Positions 2,255 to 31,897 are shown, counted from the stretch's first letter. The stretch is 35,550 nt of DNA from Clostridia bacterium (GCA_017451545.1 JAFTOB010000049.1:1-35550); one strand, 5' to 3'. Numbers and translations are program-made. Notes: generated by a model from the sequence alone, not told the origin.

Positions 2255-3700
2255 ATGAATTACCGTATGCTCGGATACCTTCTCGGTATCATTCTTCTGA
2301 TCGAGGCAGCACTGATGGCGTTGCCGACCGTGGTCTCGGCCATATACGGCGAAGCCGTCTGGCCCTTCCTCGTGACCATGGCCGCGCTGATAGTAATAGC
2401 CGCGCCCTTCGTTATATTCAAGCCGAAGGACACGGGCATCTATGCCCGAGAGGGCTTTGTCTGCGTCGGTGCGGCGTGGATACTTATGTCTGCCTTCGGT
2501 GCGCTGCCCTTCGTTATCAGCGGCGCGATCCCCAATTATATAGATGCGTTTTTTGAGACCGTTTCGGGCTTTACCACCACGGGCTCGTCTATTTTGCGTG
2601 CTGTGGAGGGTCTGCCCATGGGCATTCTTTTCTGGCGCAGCTTTACCCACTGGGTAGGCGGCATGGGAGTGCTTGTATTTATGCTGGCCATTATGCCCTC
2701 GGACAACGGGCGGGCCATGTATCTGCTCCGCGCCGAGGTTCCCGGCCCCACAAAGGACAAGCTGGTTCCGAAGATGCGGCAGTCGGCTCTCATACTTTAC
2801 GGCATTTACGTTATATTGACGGTCATTATGGTGGTGGCCCTGCTCTTTACGGGTATGGATCTTTATGATTCGCTGGTCAATTCCTTTGCCACGGCGGGAA
2901 CGGGCGGCTTTTCGGTCAAGAATGCCTCCATTGCGGGCTACAATAACCCCGCGGCCGAGTGGATCATCGCCGTATTTATGGTAATGTTCGGAGTAAATTT
3001 CAATATATATTTTCTGATTCTCGTAAAAAAGCTTAAAAACATTGTGAGAAACGAGGAGCTGAGAATATACTTTATTATCTGCACCGCGGCGGCCGCCGTG
3101 ATTAGCATAAATACCATCTCCTCCATAGCGGGGCTTGGCATAGCCGACGGAATCAGGAATGCCTTCTTCCAGGTGGCTACGATCATTTCGACTACCGGAT
3201 TTTCAACCGCCGACTACGCGCTTTGGCCGTCTTTGTCAAAAACCGTGTTGGTGCTTCTTATGATCACGGGAGCCTGCGCGGGTTAGACAGCGGGCGGTAT
3301 GAAAGTATCGCGTGTTATTCTTTCCGTTAAAAATATTTTTCGCAGCATAAAGCAGGTCATACGTCCAAAGTCCGTTAATCCCGTGAGAATGGACGGTGAA
3401 ACGGTTCCCGATTCGACGTTGCAGTCTACGGCGTCATACGTGTCGGTATATTTTGCGGCTATCGTTCTCTGCGTGCTGGTAATTTCTGTTGACGGCTTCA
3501 ATTTCGAAACCAACGTAACGGCCACTCTTGCCTGCCTTAATAACATAGGCCCCGGTCTCGGCGCTGTCGGCCCTACCGGTAATTTTGCCGATTTTTCAAT
3601 GCTGTCAAAGCTGGTGCTGTCCCTTGTTATGCTTGTGGGCAGGCTTGAATTTATGCCACTGCTCATTCTTTTCTCTCCCACCACCTGGAAGAGACACTGA
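2255..3700 (+). pseudogene. trkH: Trk potassium channel TrkH, interrupted by an in-frame TAG
   Basis: TrkH is the potassium-conducting membrane subunit partnered by TrkA. The frame from 2255 to 3700 encodes about 481 residues, the normal TrkH size, but codon 344 (3284-3286) is TAG. The first part (343 residues) holds three membrane-pore-membrane repeats, with filter segments SGFTTTGSS, ATAGTGGFS and ISTTGFSTA. It ends in GACAG, exactly where the family has GxCAGSTxGG, the intramembrane gating loop. After the stop the frame continues TAGGMKVSR, then the fourth repeat with filter LNNIGPGLG. The stop replaces the conserved Ser and is one base from the Ser codon TCG. Both halves look intact and under constraint, so this is a recent nonsense mutation, a readthrough or a sequence error. 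No Shine-Dalgarno precedes the ATG at 3299, which argues against a separate second gene. Confidence 0.9.
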
Positions 3701-9641: not shown

Positions 9642-9715
9642 TGGAGCGGGTAACGGGAATCGAACCCGCGTGGCCGGCTTGGGAAGCCGGAGTTTTACCA
9701 TTAGACTATACCCGC
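9642..9715 (-). tRNA. tRNA-Gly (anticodon TCC)
   Basis: On the minus strand GCGGGTA (9715-9709) pairs with TACCCGC to form the 7-bp acceptor stem. The anticodon stem CCGGC/GCCGG frames the loop CTTCCCA with anticodon TCC. The T arm contains GGTTCGATTCC. The discriminator base is T and the 3' CCA is encoded (9644-9642). All arms fold, at 74 bases including CCA. Confidence 0.97.
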
Positions 9716-9725
9716 GAACAATGAT

Positions 9726-9754
9726 ATTATAAAGCTTTCTTTCTCAAAAGTCAA
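9726..9754 (-). promoter_or_regulatory. Promoter of tRNA-Gly
   Basis: On the minus strand TTGACT (9754-9749) and TATAAT (9731-9726) are 17 bp apart; the start point would fall a few bases before the mature 5' end. Confidence 0.85.
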
Positions 9755-9794
9755 GAGAAAAACGTCGATAAAATAATTTTTTAAGGAGATTAAA

Positions 9795-11513
9795 ATGTCT
9801 GACATCAAGATCCCGCGCGCAGAATATCCGCGCCCTCAGTTTGTAAGAAAAGATTGGCTCACCTTGAACGGTGAGTGGGAATACGCCACCGACCGCGCCG
9901 CCAGCGGTCACGAGCGCGGCCTGCAGAACGCAGAGTCCCTGCCCGAGCGCATCATTGTCCCCTTCTGCCGCGAGAGCAAGCTTTCGGGCATCGGAGACCT
10001 CGATTTCTGCGAGTGCTGCTGGTACCGTCGCGAGCTCTGCATTCCGAAGGAATGGCAGGGCGACCGTGTGATCCTCAATATCGGTGCCTGCGATTACCGC
10101 ACCACCGTTTGGGTCAACGGCAAAAAGATCGGCGAGCACGTGGGCGGTTTCGTGTCTTTCTCCTTCGACGTGACCGATGCGCTGAATTACGAAAAGGACG
10201 TAGTCGTCATCCGCGCATACGATGCCTGCCGCTCCATGAAGCAGGCGGGCGGCAAGCAGAGCCGCAGATATGAGTCCCACGGCTGTGACTACCGCCGCAC
10301 TACCGGTATCTGGCAGAGCGTTTGGTTGGAGCGCGTGCCGCAGGGCTATATCAAAAGCGCAAAATATTATCCTAACATAAATTCGCAGAGCCTGACCGTT
10401 GTGGCTCGCGTTATCGGCGGTGAGGGTCAGATCCTTCGTGCCGAGGCCAATTATGACGGCAAGCCTATGGGCTCTGCCGAGGGCAGAGTTTGCGCGGGGC
10501 AGGCACATCTTGTGCTTCCTCTTTCCGAGCTTCACCTTTGGGAGGTTGGTCAGGGTCGGCTTTACGATCTGAAGCTGACACTCGGTGACGACGAGGTTGA
10601 GAGCTATTTCGGTATGAGAAGCGTTGAGGCCAAGGACGGTGTGCTCTACATCAACGGCAAAAAGGTCTTTCAGCGACTTGTGCTGGATCAGGGCTTCTAC
10701 CCCGACGGTATTCTGACGGCGCAGACCGAGGCCGAGCTTTTCGGTGACATTGATCTTTCCATGGCTATGGGCTTCAACGGCGCGAGACTTCACCAAAAGA
10801 TCTTCGAGCCCCAATTCCTTTCTCAGTGCGACCGCCGCGGCTACATAGTCTGGGGTGAGCACGGCAACTGGGGAATGGATATTTCGAAGGGTGACCGTTA
10901 CATCAATTTCTCCTCCGAGTGGATCGAGGCCCTGGAGCGCGATTTCAACCACCCCGCCATCATCGGCTGGTGTCCTCTCAACGAGACGCAGAACGATCAG
11001 GATCCCGATTTCCTCCGCGCGCTCTCAAAGCTCACCCGCGAGCTTGATCCCACCCGCGCTTACATCGACACCTCGGGCTGGGCGCACGTTGAAAAGGAGT
11101 ATACCGATTTCACCGATATTCACGATTACGATCAGAACCCCGTGACTATGAAGGAAAGATACGACCGATTTGCCGCGGGTGAGTCTATCGCCATGCATAA
11201 CAGACATTGGATATATAAGGATCCCACCTTTGTCAGCGAGTACGGCGGTATCCGCCGCGGCAACGAGGGCACGGGCTGGGGCTACGGTGAGACCCCCGAG
11301 GACGATAAGGCTTTCCTCGAGCGTCTTGACGGGCTGACCCGCGTGCTTTGCGAGGACAAAAAGATCTCCGCCTTCTGCTACACTCAGCTTACTGACGTGG
11401 AGCAGGAGCTCAACGGTGTTTACACCTTTGACAGAAAGCCGAAATTCCCCGCCGAGGTCATAAGCAGGATCTTCGGTCAGACGGCGTATATCGGCGACGA
11501 AAAATTTGATTAA
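9795..11513 (+). CDS. Glycoside hydrolase family 2 enzyme (beta-galactosidase/beta-glucuronidase type)
   Basis: GH2 enzymes hydrolyse terminal beta-linked sugars with retention of configuration. The 572-residue protein has the N-terminal sugar-binding jelly roll (about 15-185, with LNGEWEYATD and TTVWVNGKKIGEH). An immunoglobulin-like domain follows (about 190-275), then a TIM barrel. The acid/base Glu397 is in the motif PLNETQ and the likely nucleophile Glu482 is in FVSEYGG. There is no signal peptide, so it acts in the cytoplasm on imported sugars. It is shorter than LacZ because the C-terminal beta domains are absent. AAGGAG precedes the ATG. No sugar transporter is adjacent. It begins a same-strand run with proA, whose ribosome binding site overlaps its stop codon. 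The exact substrate cannot be read from sequence. Confidence 0.92.
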   Translation: MSDIKIPRAEYPRPQFVRKDWLTLNGEWEYATDRAASGHERGLQNAESLPERIIVPFCRESKLSGIGDLDFCECCWYRRELCIPKEWQGDRVILNIGACDYRTTVWVNGKKIGEHVGGFVSFSFDVTDALNYEKDVVVIRAYDACRSMKQAGGKQSRRYESHGCDYRRTTGIWQSVWLERVPQGYIKSAKYYPNINSQSLTVVARVIGGEGQILRAEANYDGKPMGSAEGRVCAGQAHLVLPLSELHLWEVGQGRLYDLKLTLGDDEVESYFGMRSVEAKDGVLYINGKKVFQRLVLDQGFYPDGILTAQTEAELFGDIDLSMAMGFNGARLHQKIFEPQFLSQCDRRGYIVWGEHGNWGMDISKGDRYINFSSEWIEALERDFNHPAIIGWCPLNETQNDQDPDFLRALSKLTRELDPTRAYIDTSGWAHVEKEYTDFTDIHDYDQNPVTMKERYDRFAAGESIAMHNRHWIYKDPTFVSEYGGIRRGNEGTGWGYGETPEDDKAFLERLDGLTRVLCEDKKISAFCYTQLTDVEQELNGVYTFDRKPKFPAEVISRIFGQTAYIGDEKFD

Positions 11514-15076: not shown

Positions 15077-15322
15077 TCAATATTTGTTCTTGTCATTTGG
15101 ATCAATTATCTTGACCAGCATGATCACCGAGGTGACTGTTACGATCGCTATGATCACCGCAATGACCGAAGAGGTCGTGTCGGAATCGGTCTCGCCTTCC
15201 GCTGCGTCGGGCGGTGCGCTTTCTGCGGCTTCCGCTCGTGCGTTGATCGGGGCAAAAACTGCGAGAAGAAGAGCAAGTATAAGGATTATCGGAAAAAGAA
15301 CGGATTTTTTGATAACTGACAC
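15077..15322 (-). CDS. Small membrane protein with signal peptide and C-terminal anchor
   Basis: Function unknown, 81 residues. An N-terminal hydrophobic signal (about 8-27) ends in a plausible cleavage site near INARA-EA. An acidic, Asp/Glu/Ser/Thr-rich stretch follows (about 30-50), then a second hydrophobic helix (about 51-71) and a short charged tail, KIIDPNDKNKY. This is the layout of a small type I membrane protein. The start is GTG at 15322-15320, supported by AGGAG seven bases upstream. It is divergent from the LytTR regulator and might be regulated by it or feed into it; that is inference from position. Confidence 0.65.
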   Translation of the reverse strand: MSVIKKSVLFPIILILALLLAVFAPINARAEAAESAPPDAAEGETDSDTTSSVIAVIIAIVTVTSVIMLVKIIDPNDKNKY

Positions 15323-15411: not shown

Positions 15412-16110
15412 ATGATGACCGTCGCCGTATGTGATGACAGCAGATACGCCGTGTTTTTTGCCGAGGAGCTGAGGTTTTTGGCCGAGGAGGCAGGCGTGGA
15501 CGTCTCCGTGGACGTTTTTAAGAGCTACTCTTATCTGCAAACGGCTATGAAAAGTAAAAAATACGATCTTTTGCTGCTCGAAACGGTAATACGCGGCGTC
15601 AGCGGTATAGATTTCGCGCGAAATCTGCGGCTTTCGCATTGCGAGGCGGACATAATCTTCGTCAGCGCAAGCGCCGAGCACGCCCTTCCTGCCTACAGCG
15701 TTTTTCCCATAGGCTACATTCTCAAGCCTTTCCAAAGAAGAAGACTTCGCGCACCCTTCCGAAGAGCTGCCGAGAAGTACGTTAAAAAGCCTACATTAAT
15801 ATTAAGGGGAATGAATGGCGAGAAGATCACGGTGTCGCTGGAGGATCTGCTCTATATAGAAGTAATAGGTAACGAGCTTGACATTCACTGTCGTACCGGT
15901 GTGTCCAAATGCGTTGGCTCGCTGTCAGAGACTTATCTGGATCTGCCTCAGAAGCAGTTCTACCGCTCTCACCGAAGCTTTATTGTCAATCTCAATTACG
16001 TGGTGCGCGCCGCGAAATACTATTTTGTGATGGATAACGGCGACAAGGTGACCATTGCGAAGAACAGATACGCCGAGGCAAAGAGTATTCTGACCGATTT
16101 TGTCGGTTAA
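15412..16110 (+). CDS. Orphan LytTR-family response regulator with altered phosphorylation site
   Basis: The 232-residue cytoplasmic transcription regulator has an N-terminal receiver domain (about 1-120) and a C-terminal LytTR DNA-binding domain (about 130-230, with LLYIEVIGNELDIH, FYRSHRSFIVNLNYV and KNRYAEAK). In the receiver the acidic pair Asp8-Asp9, Ser85 and Lys105 (YILKPF) are present. The phosphoacceptor position, normally Asp in LDxxMPG, is Glu57 in LLLLETVIRG, and the MP motif is lost. It therefore probably does not signal by Asp phosphorylation and may be locked in an active-like state. No histidine kinase is adjacent. GGAAGGG lies about ten bases before the ATG. The next gene downstream is the giant lipoprotein, with candidate LytTR sites in between. 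Confidence 0.9.
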   Translation: MMTVAVCDDSRYAVFFAEELRFLAEEAGVDVSVDVFKSYSYLQTAMKSKKYDLLLLETVIRGVSGIDFARNLRLSHCEADIIFVSASAEHALPAYSVFPIGYILKPFQRRRLRAPFRRAAEKYVKKPTLILRGMNGEKITVSLEDLLYIEVIGNELDIHCRTGVSKCVGSLSETYLDLPQKQFYRSHRSFIVNLNYVVRAAKYYFVMDNGDKVTIAKNRYAEAKSILTDFVG

Positions 16111-16136: not shown

Positions 16137-16236
16137 GTGAACGGGGCAAAAAATACCGAAAGAATGCCCAAAATAGGAAAAATACAGCAAACGAGGAAAA
16201 ACTCTGACCCGTTGGTAGCAAATAAGACCCGTTCAT
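16137..16236 (+). promoter_or_regulatory. Candidate LytTR binding sites upstream of the giant lipoprotein gene
   Basis: CCCGTTGGT (16208-16216) and CCCGTTCAT (16228-16236) are direct repeats 20 bp apart, ending ten bases before the -35 box. An inverted third copy, CCCGTTCAC, lies on the minus strand at 16145-16137. Known LytTR sites are direct 9-bp repeats with a central GTT, usually about 21-22 bp apart; eight of nine positions fit that pattern here. The regulator gene ends only 26 bases upstream of the first copy. Binding is inferred. Confidence 0.5.
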
Positions 16237-16245
16237 AAAAAACTG

Positions 16246-16274
16246 TTGAAAAAATATATGTACTGGTGTAAAAT
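16246..16274 (+). promoter_or_regulatory. Promoter of the giant lipoprotein gene
   Basis: TTGAAA (16246-16251) and TAAAAT (16269-16274) are 17 bp apart. The predicted start near 16281 excludes an in-frame ATG at 16246 and agrees with translation from 16309. Confidence 0.75.
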
Positions 16275-16308
16275 GATAGCACAATTCTTATTAAATGGAG
16301 GGTTAAGA

Positions 16309-19300
16309 ATGCTTATTTCCACTAAAAACGGAAAAACCGGTATAGTCAGAGCCATAGCTCTCGCTATCTGTGTCGTAATGCTCGTTGCATTTGCGGCAGG
16401 TTGTTCCGATGAGCATGCCCAGAGCCTTGCTAATGCTGCGCAGACTGCAGCTGATCAGGCCGCCGAAGCCGCAAAACAGGCACAGGAGGCTGCAAAGCAG
16501 GCCCAGGGAACCGCAGATCAGGCTATTAAGGATGCCGCATCTGCAAATTCGAACGCAAATTCCAAATTCACCGAGGCCCAGGTTGAGGCTGCCATTTTGG
16601 AGATCCTCAAGGACTACGTGAAGGCTGAAGATGCCGCTACCAAGGCTGAGCTGGAGGACGTTTCCAAGCAGCTCGCCAACTATCTCACCGAGGATGCCGT
16701 TAAGGCTCTCATTTCTGCCGCCGCAGCAAGCAAGGATGACCTTGATGCCGCAAAGGAGGAGATCCTTGACGAGGTTTCCAAGATCGTCACCAACCTCGAG
16801 GGCTACTACAACAAGAGCGCTATTGATGCATTTCTTGCAAAGTACTACACCTCCGAGGAAATCGACACTGCTCTCGCCGATTACTATGTAAAGTCTAAGG
16901 TTGACGAGCTTGTTGCCGGTGCTATTGATCCCACTGAGCTTGCTGCTGCTATCGGCACCAGCGAGGAGGAGGTTAAGGAGCTTATCGCTACATATGTAGA
17001 TCCTACCGAGCTCGCAACCGAGCTTGCTAAGTACTACACCAAGACCGAGATCGACGCAAAGTTCCTTGCCAACGAAGAGGCTATGAAGGAATTCGTTGAG
17101 GAGCAGCTGAAGTCTTACGTCACCAAGGATGAGCTCGCAGGCGAGCTTCAGTTCCTCTCCGGTGAGCTCAACGCTCTCGGCGGTCAGCTCAGACAGCTCC
17201 AGAGCAAGCTCATTGAGACTGCAGATAAGACTCTTGCCGATGCAGAGGCTTATGCAAGATCTCTTGTGGAGGCTTACAATGATCTCACTCCCGTTGTTGC
17301 TGAGAAGTATCTTGAGCTTCTTGCACACCAGGAGGCATACATCGATGCGAACGGCTACCTCTACGATGCAGAGGGTCTGAAGGCTGTTTACAACAAGTAC
17401 AACTACGCAACCGTTCTTCTTATCAGAGCCACCAGCCAGGAGGCTATTGACGCTGTTATGGATATCGTTAAGGAGTCCGTCGACGGTGTCGACACCATTC
17501 TTGATCAGCTCTACGACGCACTCGTTGCTGTTGAGGCTACCAAGATCGAGGGTATCAACGGTGAGAAGTACATCGCTATCGCTACCGGTACCTTCACCGA
17601 GGATTCCGGTGCTGCTATCGACGAGTGCCTCGCACTCCTCGACAAGGCTCTTGCAAACGGTATCACCGTTGAGGAGCTGAACGCATATCCCGAGATGGCA
17701 CTTGAGACTGCTACCAAGGCATACGATGCCGAGTACACCAGACTCGAGAACGCTAAGTACGCTGCCGATAACAGCGTATACGCTCAGGCTGTTGTATACG
17801 ATGCAAACCGCACCTACTACAAGCTTGAGGGTGGTGTTTACACTGCTGTTGCTGCAGCCGAGGTAAACGACACCAACTACAGCAACTACTACGTTGTTGA
17901 GAAGACCGCTGTCAACAATCTTGTAAACGCCCTCGAGGATTGGGCTGAGTACAAGAAGGAAGAGACCGTTAAGACCGTTGAGGCTCTCTATGCAAAGCTC
18001 AGCGCCGCAGAGGTTGCTTACTATGCTTGGATGGATGAGTACTTCGAGGCTTACGAGGATGAGGCTAACCCCAACATCGCTCGTCTCATTCCCGGTTGGG
18101 CTACTACTTATAAGGATGCTTCCAACCACTGGGCTGTTCTTGCCGGCATCGACGAGCTGATCGAGGACTACCTCGCAAAGATCAACGATCTTCTCGGCGA
18201 GTCCAAGACCGGTTGGGACAAGAACGATACCGTTCTTTACACTTGGCTCGAGACCATTACCGCTCTCGTAACCGAGCTTGAGGCTGACGATGATACCTAC
18301 GGTTTCATCAGCGTATATCCTGATCTCAAGACCAGATACGAGGACCTGCTTGCTGCCGAGGAGTATGCAGATGCTGCAAATGATCTCTATCTTGCATTTA
18401 TCGACGAGACCAGCGGCAAGTCGGTTTACGGCTACCTTGTTGACCTCGTAGCACTTGATCGCGAGATCACCAACTACAAGCAGTATGGCATTTGCATGGA
18501 GACATACAATGCATGGTTCTTCGACGCTACCACCGGATATCCCAACACCGACGAGGCTAACAGACTTGCTATCGTCAACTCCAATGAGGCAACTCCTGAT
18601 CTCGACAACGAGGTTGCAGCTGCTTCCGCACGCTTTGTACAGCTCAAGCAGGCTGCTGAGATGGCAGAGGAGATCATCAACCCCGCTATCGATGCATTCT
18701 ACGATGCTGAAGGTAACGTAAAGGTTACTTATAAGGACATGGACGCTCTCGAGGCACTCTGGTACTCCATCAACGGCAAGCCCGCTACCGAGACCGAGCC
18801 TGCTGTCAAGGGATGGCTCCAGATCTTTGATATTCCTTCTGATCCCAGAGCAAACGGATACTTTGCTTCTAACTACAATATGGTAGACCACGACAAGCTC
18901 ATTGCAGCTCTCGAGGCTTGCCAGAACGTCATCGGCGAGATCCTTGCTGATCCCGACGTAATCGCATTCAGCGGTATGATCGCGGCTCTCCAGGAGACCT
19001 GGTTCGAGGATGATTACCAGCTCTACTACTACAACGACTACGTAACCGCCAGAAACCTGTACACCACTTGGGCTAACAGATGGGAGATCAACGACATCAC
19101 CCTCGAGACCTTCAACGGTGGTACACAGCAGGGCGAGGTCGATAACATCGGCGCACTCTTCAAGTTCCTCAACACTGTCGGTACAGCAGTTGAGAACGAG
19201 CTCAAGGTTGCTATCGAGACTGACACCATCAACGGTGTTAAGTACGCTATCTTCAATACTGAGATGGCTAAGTTCGCTGACGGCGACTACAAGCCTGCTC

Positions 19301-20781
19301 TCGTTGGTAGCGAGTGGGTAGTTGATGCTTGGACCGTTGCTGATCTGTGGGTCAAGACTCACATCGACTTCCAGACCGAGGGCAGAGGCTTCAATGACGT
19401 TATCAAGTCTATCGACGGTCTCTTCACCGAGGACGAGTACGTAATCGTAAAGGCTGTTTACGAGGAGTACGCTGCATACGTTGCAACCGCAAAGGCAGAG
19501 CTTGAGACTCTCTTTGCCGAGCTCTCCGATTACTTCACTCTCACCGAGGGTGTATATGACTTCAACATCACTCTCATCACCGACGTTCTGCCTCTTGAGA
19601 CTCTCGAGGGCAAGTACACCGGTACTGAGGGCTGGCTCGCAGCTTACGCTGTTACCGACGAGGCTAACATCACCGATGCTGACCTCAAGGCACTTGCGCA
19701 GCAGTTCGACGCTGACCTCACCGCAGTTATGACCGAGCTCAACGCTCTCAAGGCTTCCTACGAGGCTGACCTTGCCGCTCTTGACTTCGACAACAAGCTT
19801 CTCGCTCTCGAGTCCGGCACTCTCACCATCTACAGCAACTACGTTGGCGATCTTGCAGATCTCCGCGCAGCATACAATGCATTCGCTGACAAGTACTTCC
19901 TGGGCAACAACAGCTCTGAGGCATTTGCAAACAGCATGCAGTTCACCGCTCTTAACATCTACGTAAAGAGACTTGAGGCTCTTGAGGCTCAGGTTCGTCT
20001 CCTTGAGGATGCTAAGAAGGCTGACGCCAACGAGTTCATTGCCGCTGTTGAGGCAATTCTCGCAGGTGGCGTTACTACCGATGATTACCAGGCAATTGTT
20101 GATGCTCTCGATATGTTCGCTGAGTGGTCCGCTAACATCGACACCACTTACGAGACCATGTTCGACGGTATCTATCTGACCGGTGAGCTTCTCGGCGCAA
20201 ACGGCGACCTCGTTGACGCTAAGGCTTCTATCGATGAGATCATGGATCTTCTCGAGACCGCTAAGGATGCTATCGCAGATCTCGGCGCAGCCGAGTCTCC
20301 CGCTATCAACTACACCGACAAGACTGCTCTTGATGCTTACAAGGCACTCTACGATGCAGCTGTAGCAGCAGTTGAGGCATTCAAGACCGCAAACGGCAGC
20401 CTTGGTACCACCACTCTTGCTGACGAGTACAGAATTACCGAGGCAGAGCAGGCTATCATCGCTAACGCAAAGGTTGAGATCGACTCCTACGGTTATCTCT
20501 GCAAGGCATACGAGGCATATAACGAGGCATACGGTAAGTACATTGCTGACCAGGGACTTGATCTTGAGGATGAGTTCAAGGTTGAGCTTGAGGCTACCAT
20601 TGCCAACATTAAGGGTCTTGTAGCTTCCGGCGCTGCTGACACCACTGTTCAGGCAGCTACCGACCGTCTCGCATCCGAGCTTGACACCATCGTCAAGGAG
20701 GCCGGCAATATCGGCGGAAGCGAAGCTCCCGATCCCGATGACACAGATCCTGACATCTATCCCGAGGGAACCAATCCCTAA
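16309..20781 (+). CDS. Giant alpha-helical surface lipoprotein
   Basis: The product is 1490 residues. It has a lipoprotein signal with lipobox FAAGC near residue 29, so it is exported and lipid-anchored. The mature N-terminus is an Ala/Gln heptad coiled coil (AADQAAEAAKQAQ). Then come at least seven short units of the YYTKTEIDAKF or YVTKDELAGEL type (up to about residue 290), the kind seen in trimeric phage-fibre and surface-adhesin stalks. The rest is long, acidic and mostly helical, with FIVAR-like stretches and a Pro/Asp-rich tail. There is no sortase motif or C-terminal membrane helix. GGAGG seven bases before 16309 fixes the start. Codon use differs sharply from its neighbours (GCT/GCA Ala, AAG, TAC, AGA/CGT), indicating very high expression. 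It is a single transcription unit with a strong terminator. Function is unknown; adhesin or structural surface layer is my guess. Confidence 0.85.
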   Translation: MLISTKNGKTGIVRAIALAICVVMLVAFAAGCSDEHAQSLANAAQTAADQAAEAAKQAQEAAKQAQGTADQAIKDAASANSNANSKFTEAQVEAAILEILKDYVKAEDAATKAELEDVSKQLANYLTEDAVKALISAAAASKDDLDAAKEEILDEVSKIVTNLEGYYNKSAIDAFLAKYYTSEEIDTALADYYVKSKVDELVAGAIDPTELAAAIGTSEEEVKELIATYVDPTELATELAKYYTKTEIDAKFLANEEAMKEFVEEQLKSYVTKDELAGELQFLSGELNALGGQLRQLQSKLIETADKTLADAEAYARSLVEAYNDLTPVVAEKYLELLAHQEAYIDANGYLYDAEGLKAVYNKYNYATVLLIRATSQEAIDAVMDIVKESVDGVDTILDQLYDALVAVEATKIEGINGEKYIAIATGTFTEDSGAAIDECLALLDKALANGITVEELNAYPEMALETATKAYDAEYTRLENAKYAADNSVYAQAVVYDANRTYYKLEGGVYTAVAAAEVNDTNYSNYYVVEKTAVNNLVNALEDWAEYKKEETVKTVEALYAKLSAAEVAYYAWMDEYFEAYEDEANPNIARLIPGWATTYKDASNHWAVLAGIDELIEDYLAKINDLLGESKTGWDKNDTVLYTWLETITALVTELEADDDTYGFISVYPDLKTRYEDLLAAEEYADAANDLYLAFIDETSGKSVYGYLVDLVALDREITNYKQYGICMETYNAWFFDATTGYPNTDEANRLAIVNSNEATPDLDNEVAAASARFVQLKQAAEMAEEIINPAIDAFYDAEGNVKVTYKDMDALEALWYSINGKPATETEPAVKGWLQIFDIPSDPRANGYFASNYNMVDHDKLIAALEACQNVIGEILADPDVIAFSGMIAALQETWFEDDYQLYYYNDYVTARNLYTTWANRWEINDITLETFNGGTQQGEVDNIGALFKFLNTVGTAVENELKVAIETDTINGVKYAIFNTEMAKFADGDYKPALVGSEWVVDAWTVADLWVKTHIDFQTEGRGFNDVIKSIDGLFTEDEYVIVKAVYEEYAAYVATAKAELETLFAELSDYFTLTEGVYDFNITLITDVLPLETLEGKYTGTEGWLAAYAVTDEANITDADLKALAQQFDADLTAVMTELNALKASYEADLAALDFDNKLLALESGTLTIYSNYVGDLADLRAAYNAFADKYFLGNNSSEAFANSMQFTALNIYVKRLEALEAQVRLLEDAKKADANEFIAAVEAILAGGVTTDDYQAIVDALDMFAEWSANIDTTYETMFDGIYLTGELLGANGDLVDAKASIDEIMDLLETAKDAIADLGAAESPAINYTDKTALDAYKALYDAAVAAVEAFKTANGSLGTTTLADEYRITEAEQAIIANAKVEIDSYGYLCKAYEAYNEAYGKYIADQGLDLEDEFKVELEATIANIKGLVASGAADTTVQAATDRLASELDTIVKEAGNIGGSEAPDPDDTDPDIYPEGTNP

Positions 20782-20820: not shown

Positions 20821-20851
20821 GGGGACAGCCGCAAGGCTGTCCCCGTTTTTT
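20821..20851 (+). terminator. Terminator of the giant lipoprotein gene
   Basis: A perfect 10-bp stem GGGGACAGCC/GGCTGTCCCC with a GCAA tetraloop (20821-20844) is followed by G and six T. Confidence 0.95.
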
Positions 20852-31513: not shown

Positions 31514-31555
31514 TGTGTATACAAATCCCGTGAGGGAAAATTTATGGAGGAAAAT

Positions 31556-31897
31556 ATGAAGACTATCAGAATCACAGCTTGCGTTCTTCTTGCTGCACTC
31601 TTTCTTACCGTTATGGTAAGCTGCGGCGGAGGCAACGATCCTTCTCTTGTCGGTGAATGGGTCGCAGAGGTTGAAGGTATGGAGATGACCTTCGCGTTCA
31701 ACGAGGACGGAACCGGAACAATGGGATCTATGGGTGTAAACTTTGAAACCACCTATAAGGTTGTAGACGGTGACACTGTTGAAATTACCATGAATATGAT
31801 GGGCGAGACCGAGACCACCGAGTTTACTTACAAGATCGAGGGCGATAAGCTTTCTCTCACTGCTGATGGCGAGACCCTCGTATTCACCAAGAAATAA
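31556..31897 (+). CDS. Small lipoprotein with a beta-rich domain
   Basis: The product is 113 residues. The lipoprotein signal ends in the lipobox VMVSC near residue 23, followed by GGG and a short linker. The body is a single beta-rich domain starting SLVGEWVAEVEG, with alternating strands and a DGTGTMGS turn, like the DUF5640/lipocalin-like domains common in clostridial lipoproteins. The C-terminal unit of the WG-repeat lipoprotein (minus strand, 4274-5872) has a similar layout. GGAGG at 31546-31550 lies after an in-frame ATG at 31544, so 31556 is the start. Function unknown. It has its own promoter and terminator. Confidence 0.85.
   Translation: MKTIRITACVLLAALFLTVMVSCGGGNDPSLVGEWVAEVEGMEMTFAFNEDGTGTMGSMGVNFETTYKVVDGDTVEITMNMMGETETTEFTYKIEGDKLSLTADGETLVFTKK

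Follow-up and report, generated by a model that had tools for sequence, protein, structure and literature searches.

The described systems closest to the gene studied here include both cell-surface proteins and regulators. Surface-layer (S-layer) proteins are acidic, dominantly expressed from a strong promoter of their own and fast-evolving in their exposed part, and they are held by SLH or CWB2 wall binding. Alanine-zipper lipoproteins of the Lpp/OprI type (NCBIfam NF040598) carry a lipobox followed by a heptad coil with Ala at the a and d positions, as does Licanantase, for which a trimeric coiled coil and a place among the major components of the secretome have been described (PMC4137666). 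On the regulatory side, the LytTR Regulatory Systems (LRS; PMC6193735), ComE and AgrA have in common a LytTR DNA-binding domain and a direct repeat just above the -35 element. In aspartate-less receiver (ALR) regulators the phospho-acceptor Asp is replaced, most commonly by Glu, and phosphate-independent activity is possible, though often not from the substitution alone (PMC4395418). Here we analyze a 35,550-nucleotide stretch of DNA from a Clostridia bacterium (GCA_017451545.1, JAFTOB010000049.1:1-35550; referred to below as the window) in which a gene for a giant acidic lipoprotein of 1490 residues (16309-20781, + strand) lies directly downstream of a gene for a LytTR response regulator whose receiver has no phospho-acceptor Asp (15412-16110, +). 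By analogy the lipoprotein may work like a major S-layer protein or an abundant Lpp-like protein, yet it fails defining features of each, and a search of open-licence papers returned nothing relevant on such lipoproteins and no description of the regulator-lipoprotein pair.

A profile of the lipoprotein was searched against 246 genomes from its taxonomic family, all genomes considered here being metagenome-assembled genomes (MAGs) with completeness of ∼52-95%. Nine carriers were found, the window genome included, and in seven of these, from four genera, a LytTR gene neighbors the lipoprotein gene. The ten best public-genome matches to the regulator all come from MAGs bearing the name Clostridia bacterium or Oscillospiraceae bacterium, and the gene immediately after each encodes an acidic lipoprotein of 559-1512 amino acids (genomes common to the public matches and the family set being counted once); five of the ten names point to the colon of sheep, the caecum of roe deer or the rumen of goats. 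When 395 family and 394 order genomes were scanned with the regulator, scores of at least 345 bits were obtained in carriers, 266 bits in G076 and no more than 213 bits thereafter. G076 contains a further pair, and together with the window and the ten best matches this brings the pairs to 12, from at least six genera of Clostridia, and in each pair the regulator is followed by a large, acidic, codon-biased lipoprotein. Of the LytTR regulators below the score gap, the five inspected (G550, G522, G220, G554 and G557) retain the usual Asp and lack a lipoprotein neighbor of this kind. Because the genes on the far, upstream side of the regulator vary between genera, the pairing extends beyond general synteny. 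Both the paired regulator and its promoter site, described below, are new with respect to an earlier account of this DNA (the sequence-only reading).

The regulator matches the Pfam families LytTR (55.6 bits, cut-off 22.6) and Response_reg (40.8 bits), each above its cut-off, and alignment with homologues places Glu57 at the position of the receiver phospho-Asp. That position is occupied by Glu in 11 of the 12 paired regulators and by Gly in one (locus L036, genome G004); in this last regulator the conserved Lys and the pair of acidic residues have been lost too. Both are common ALR substitutions, but in the present case the change has become fixed throughout a clade that is linked to a single target gene, and the main text of PMC4395418 is silent on LytTR. 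An Asp-to-Glu change can mimic phosphorylation, the LytTR regulator ComE included (PMC4395418, PMC12323615), and in ComE D60E and D60A both still activate (PMC12323615); we infer that the present regulator likewise acts independently of phosphorylation. On its domain content it belongs to the LytTR family with an aspartate-less receiver and is no LRS member, since LRS regulators are without a receiver domain. It differs from LRS, ComE and AgrA further in that its receiver lacks Asp, that no membrane inhibitor is conserved (a small membrane open reading frame (ORF) adjoins the regulator in just two of the 11 loci checked) and that its putative target is a single giant lipoprotein. Between mnmE and the regulator gene, in divergent orientation, lies a gene for a small secreted or single-transmembrane protein (15077-15322 (-) of the window and 9650-9949 (-) of locus L034), which might, by analogy with the LRS membrane proteins, partner the regulator in signaling.

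The promoter of the lipoprotein gene (TTGAAA-17-TAAAAT, 16246-16274, +) is preceded by a direct repeat, CCCGTT-N14-CCCGTT with a period of 20 (16208-16233, +), which we propose as the LytTR binding site. In the form CC[CT][GA][TC]T-N14-[CA]CC[GA]TT, with the same period, the repeat is found in all 12 regulator-linked lipoprotein promoters, its hexamers ending 12 bp (13 in one case) upstream of the -35 box; with 9-mers as the unit the gap narrows to 10 bp, and ∼10 bp has been reported as the preferred distance for LytTR direct repeats (PMC6193735). The -35 boxes of these 12 promoters are weak, with 3-5 of the six positions of TTGACA, while the -10 box and spacing are conserved across the relatives. 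In contrast, the two genomes of genus g6 (G008 and G144), on which the comparison of linked with unlinked promoters rests, encode shorter lipoproteins that have neither a LytTR neighbor nor the repeat, and their -35 boxes read TTGACA or TTGACT. A pattern scan of the loci found no repeat upstream of the regulator genes, unlike the autoregulation repeat of LRS; in paired loci it occurs only between regulator and lipoprotein. The exact site is present once in the 2.38 Mb genome, and a relaxed search of eight genomes gave 15 matches (six of them lipoprotein promoters) compared with 11 for a reversed-pattern control, so that a regulon of one gene is the simplest reading; a wider regulon was considered and set aside, as the relaxed search showed no clear excess over the control. 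The intergenic region of L030 (genome G061) contains a second, inverted LytTR-type site, the two lying at 10779-10804 (-) and 10911-10936 (+).

The sequence-only reading had claimed that codon use in the lipoprotein gene is unlike that of its neighbors and resembles that of highly expressed genes, and this is borne out. With 13 genes for ribosomal proteins, all from the S10 operon of this genome, as reference, the gene has a codon adaptation index (CAI) of 0.792 and an effective number of codons (ENC) of 34.9. The 16 other genes of the window range from 0.405 to 0.707 in CAI, the nearest being leuS (0.707) and then a short lipoprotein (0.681), and the ribosomal protein genes themselves, each left out in turn, range from 0.53 to 0.84. 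Amino-acid make-up cannot account for the bias, because recoding the protein with background codons lowers the CAI to 0.546 ± 0.011. The bias spans the entire gene, with some weakening confined to the first 150 codons. Relative to the Wright expectation from third-position GC content (GC3), ENC is 15-27 lower in every one of the 12 regulator-linked lipoproteins, as opposed to deviations of -2 to +12 in the paired regulators, a difference that strengthens the case for high expression; the two lipoproteins of genus g6 lie ∼19 below the GC3 expectation. Very high expression of the lipoprotein is thus to be expected from its codons.

The architecture proposed in the sequence-only reading, namely a lipobox, an Ala/Gln coiled coil, about seven YYTKTEID-like units and some 1200 acidic, mostly helical residues of no recognized family, is recovered. 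The signal peptide (16309-16404, +) ends in a lipobox, ..AFAAGC, that matches a PROSITE-type pattern, and its Cys32 is invariant in alignments A1 and A7. An Ala heptad coil follows (residues 37-72; 16417-16524, +); all a and d positions are Ala across a 42-residue stretch, a result reached in none of 5000 shuffles, and these columns are mostly invariant among the four proteins of alignment A1, although several relatives have no clear Ala heptad. The stalk (residues ∼103-281; 16615-17151, +) contains seven units recognized by regular expression, at residues 124, 165, 178, 191, 228, 241 and 269 (range 124-280), where 0.5 is expected per 300 shuffled residues with a maximum of 3, and an eighth at residue 103, DYVKAEDAATKAELE, recognized by eye. 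Trimerization of the lipoprotein, held likely in the sequence-only reading, is no more than plausible. The acidic body (residues ∼291-1466; 17179-20706, +) has no clear transmembrane segment (maximum KD19, the 19-residue Kyte-Doolittle hydropathy, 1.40), and the mature protein, of 160 kDa, has an isoelectric point of 4.05 and a charge of -171.

The body is predicted, at low confidence, to be almost wholly helical. An AlphaFold2 model of residues 291-1490 built from three sequences is mostly helix with a mean predicted local distance difference test (pLDDT) score of 43.8 and was left out of the fold search, while one of residues 941-1490 has a mean of 56.8, with values of 58-90 over residues 350-460 of the model. 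For this C-terminal model the best Foldseek E-value is 0.29. The top VIA-align row has a Z of 9.8 but a root mean square deviation (rmsd) of 22, and spectrin and plakin repeats are among the top rows (Z ∼6.6-8.5, rmsd 4.5-11.6) over approximately residues 200-535 of the model. A helical rod with a spectrin-like arrangement is a possible interpretation of the model, although such Z values are usual for any helical bundle. Faint repeats of ∼80 residues are also detected. The L034 lipoprotein is built of seven tandem helical repeats of this length, and a hidden Markov model (HMM) seeded from them finds just two weak copies in the window lipoprotein at E < 0.01; as a general repeat detector it was rejected, since it overfits L034. 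The window protein ends in DPDIYPEGTNP, and a C-terminal NP (20773-20778 in the window) is common to the lipoproteins of the window, L029 and G008 (..TNP, ..GPNP and ..PTNP), the L034 protein ending in ..NNPEA; the NP is possibly a terminal signal.

Searches with the window lipoprotein gave no Pfam, NCBIfam or PHROGs match above cut-off, SLH and CWB2 in Pfam included, and no PDB sequence match; those with the relatives' lipoproteins against the same collections gave sub-cut-off or unconvincing matches only, and family searches revealed no recognized binding domain in any homologue. The Ala zipper resembles coils of the Lpp/OprI type, but the match to NF040598 is below threshold, with an E-value of 9.6e-05 and 22.8 bits against a curated cut-off of 43 bits. 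A link of the stalk to trimeric phage fibers, suggested in the sequence-only reading, is not supported: the best tail-fiber match in PHROGs (phrog_2636) has E=0.079 at full length and is gone when the N-terminal 400 residues are scanned alone.

Comparison among relatives separates what is kept from what changes. Between the window genome and L029 identity is 67% for the regulator, 68% for mnmE and 80% for ligA but only 31% for the lipoprotein, for which the first 120 residues are 49% identical and the body 29%; in other pairs regulators are 72-87% identical and lipoproteins 30-50%. In alignment A1 no conserved head or pocket is visible, identity being thinly spread along the body. In two relatives, L037 (10878-13472) and L038 (10876-13359), a weak match to the Ig-like family Big_3 (E 0.0037-0.015) lies beside the anchor in place of the Ala coil; here the control elements are kept and the putative pedestal is different. 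What stays constant across the relatives is thus the type of anchor, the acidity, the grade of codon use and the control, and the presumably exposed sequence is variable.

The explanation that we favor, and consider reasonably probable, is that the lipoprotein is a major lipid-anchored coat protein, very strongly driven by a phosphorylation-independent LytTR protein. Starting from the codon bias, the pairing, the conservation of the site and the substitution of Asp, each directly visible in the DNA, we infer an abundant protein that crosses the wall to the surface and serves there as a coat, and a regulator that binds the repeat and activates. Export and lipidation would anchor the protein at the Clostridia-type cell membrane, and the conserved Ala coil and repeat stalk, ∼250 residues in all, would form a pedestal spanning the wall and carrying the long acidic helical body outward through it, so that the body would lie outside. 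The LytTR protein, released from phospho-control through the Asp-to-Glu change, would bind the tandem CCCGTT repeat above the weak -35 and drive very strong transcription of the lipoprotein gene. The body would diverge fast, with anchor type, promoter and regulator kept, as would be expected of an exposed layer on which phages, predators or host exert pressure; it is the combination of high output with fast divergence of the exposed part that argues for a coat or brush facing these agents. More tentatively, the pair may represent a cassette in gut Clostridia, in which a hypervariable dominant surface layer, lipid-anchored and with its own phosphorylation-independent LytTR activator of a one-gene regulon, has a fixed anchor, promoter and regulator and an exposed body that is swapped or diverging. 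Such a layer would differ from S-layer proteins, whose expression and acidity it would share, in being lipid-anchored.

Several points weigh against this explanation. Codon bias reports selection for translation and is no measure of abundance. One paired regulator has Gly in place of Glu, so the pairing does not depend on phosphomimicry. The models of the body are of low confidence (mean pLDDT 44 and 57) and thus leave room for a ligand-binding domain. The window's genome encodes Lgt and yielded no sortase, so that lipid anchoring offers a way to the surface, but in incomplete MAGs the missing sortase is no proof; moreover, one SLH protein is encoded elsewhere in the genome, and another surface layer is possible. 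Of the claim in the sequence-only reading that the protein is probably a major surface fiber or adhesin, the surface role and the very high expected expression stand, and the choice of fiber or adhesin over a general coat is not established. A dedicated adhesin is a serious rival: the helical body would present one specific site, for plant fiber, for mucus or for a microbial partner, and the protein's abundance would serve attachment. The long stalk and large exposed body, the ruminant-gut source of half of the ten named relatives and the weak Ig-like match near the anchor in two relatives would all fit, yet no homologue has a recognized binding domain and the body shows no conserved head or pocket, and we consider this reading unlikely.

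A role in structure, as a spacer or tether that links the membrane to the wall, in effect a giant Lpp instead of an outward coat, would explain the Ala heptad coil and the weak NF040598 match, which recurs in four of seven homologues. However, the protein is far longer than Lpp/OprI lipoproteins, with a stalk and ∼1200 further residues past the coil, it ends in TNP without the C-terminal Lys for wall attachment, and fast divergence would be unusual in a structural tether; we therefore regard this as improbable. Least probable is a secreted enzyme or binding lipoprotein of a family diverged past recognition: poor models leave scope for remote homology, but lengths of 559-1512 residues, no visible conserved polar motif and the tandem helical repeats of L034 all speak against it.

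The face that a gut bacterium presents to phages, protozoa and its host is determined by its major surface proteins, yet the surface of these uncultured gut Clostridia is largely undescribed. The proposed regulator-site-target cassette amounts to a concrete, testable prediction that names the binding protein, its 26-bp target and the gene under control, and could serve as a marker for spotting such coats in other MAGs. If correct, it would provide a clean natural case of a phosphate-free receiver domain fixed together with one target gene.

The lipoprotein gene itself is a single open frame (stop codon included), present in a single copy in the genome of 173 contigs. A Shine-Dalgarno sequence, GGAGGG, precedes the ATG (16297-16302, +) and a strong intrinsic terminator with a 10-bp stem, eight GC pairs and a T tract follows the gene (20821-20844, +). 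The aspartate kinase gene next downstream has a perfect promoter of its own, TTGACA-17-TATAAT, and in view of this and the terminator the lipoprotein gene is probably monocistronic. Opposite it runs an antisense ORF of 1019 residues (16303-19362, -), and a similar one of 1344 residues is found opposite the lipoprotein gene of G001; the former is likely a by-product of codon bias, since the ribosomal operon is also full of long antisense ORFs. Elsewhere in the window, trkH is broken by an in-frame TAG at 3284-3286, directly before the motif TAGGMKVSR, which reflects either a nonsense mutation or a fault in the assembly, and a 117-residue lipocalin-like (DUF5640) lipoprotein encoded at 31544-31897 also shows high codon adaptation (CAI 0.68).

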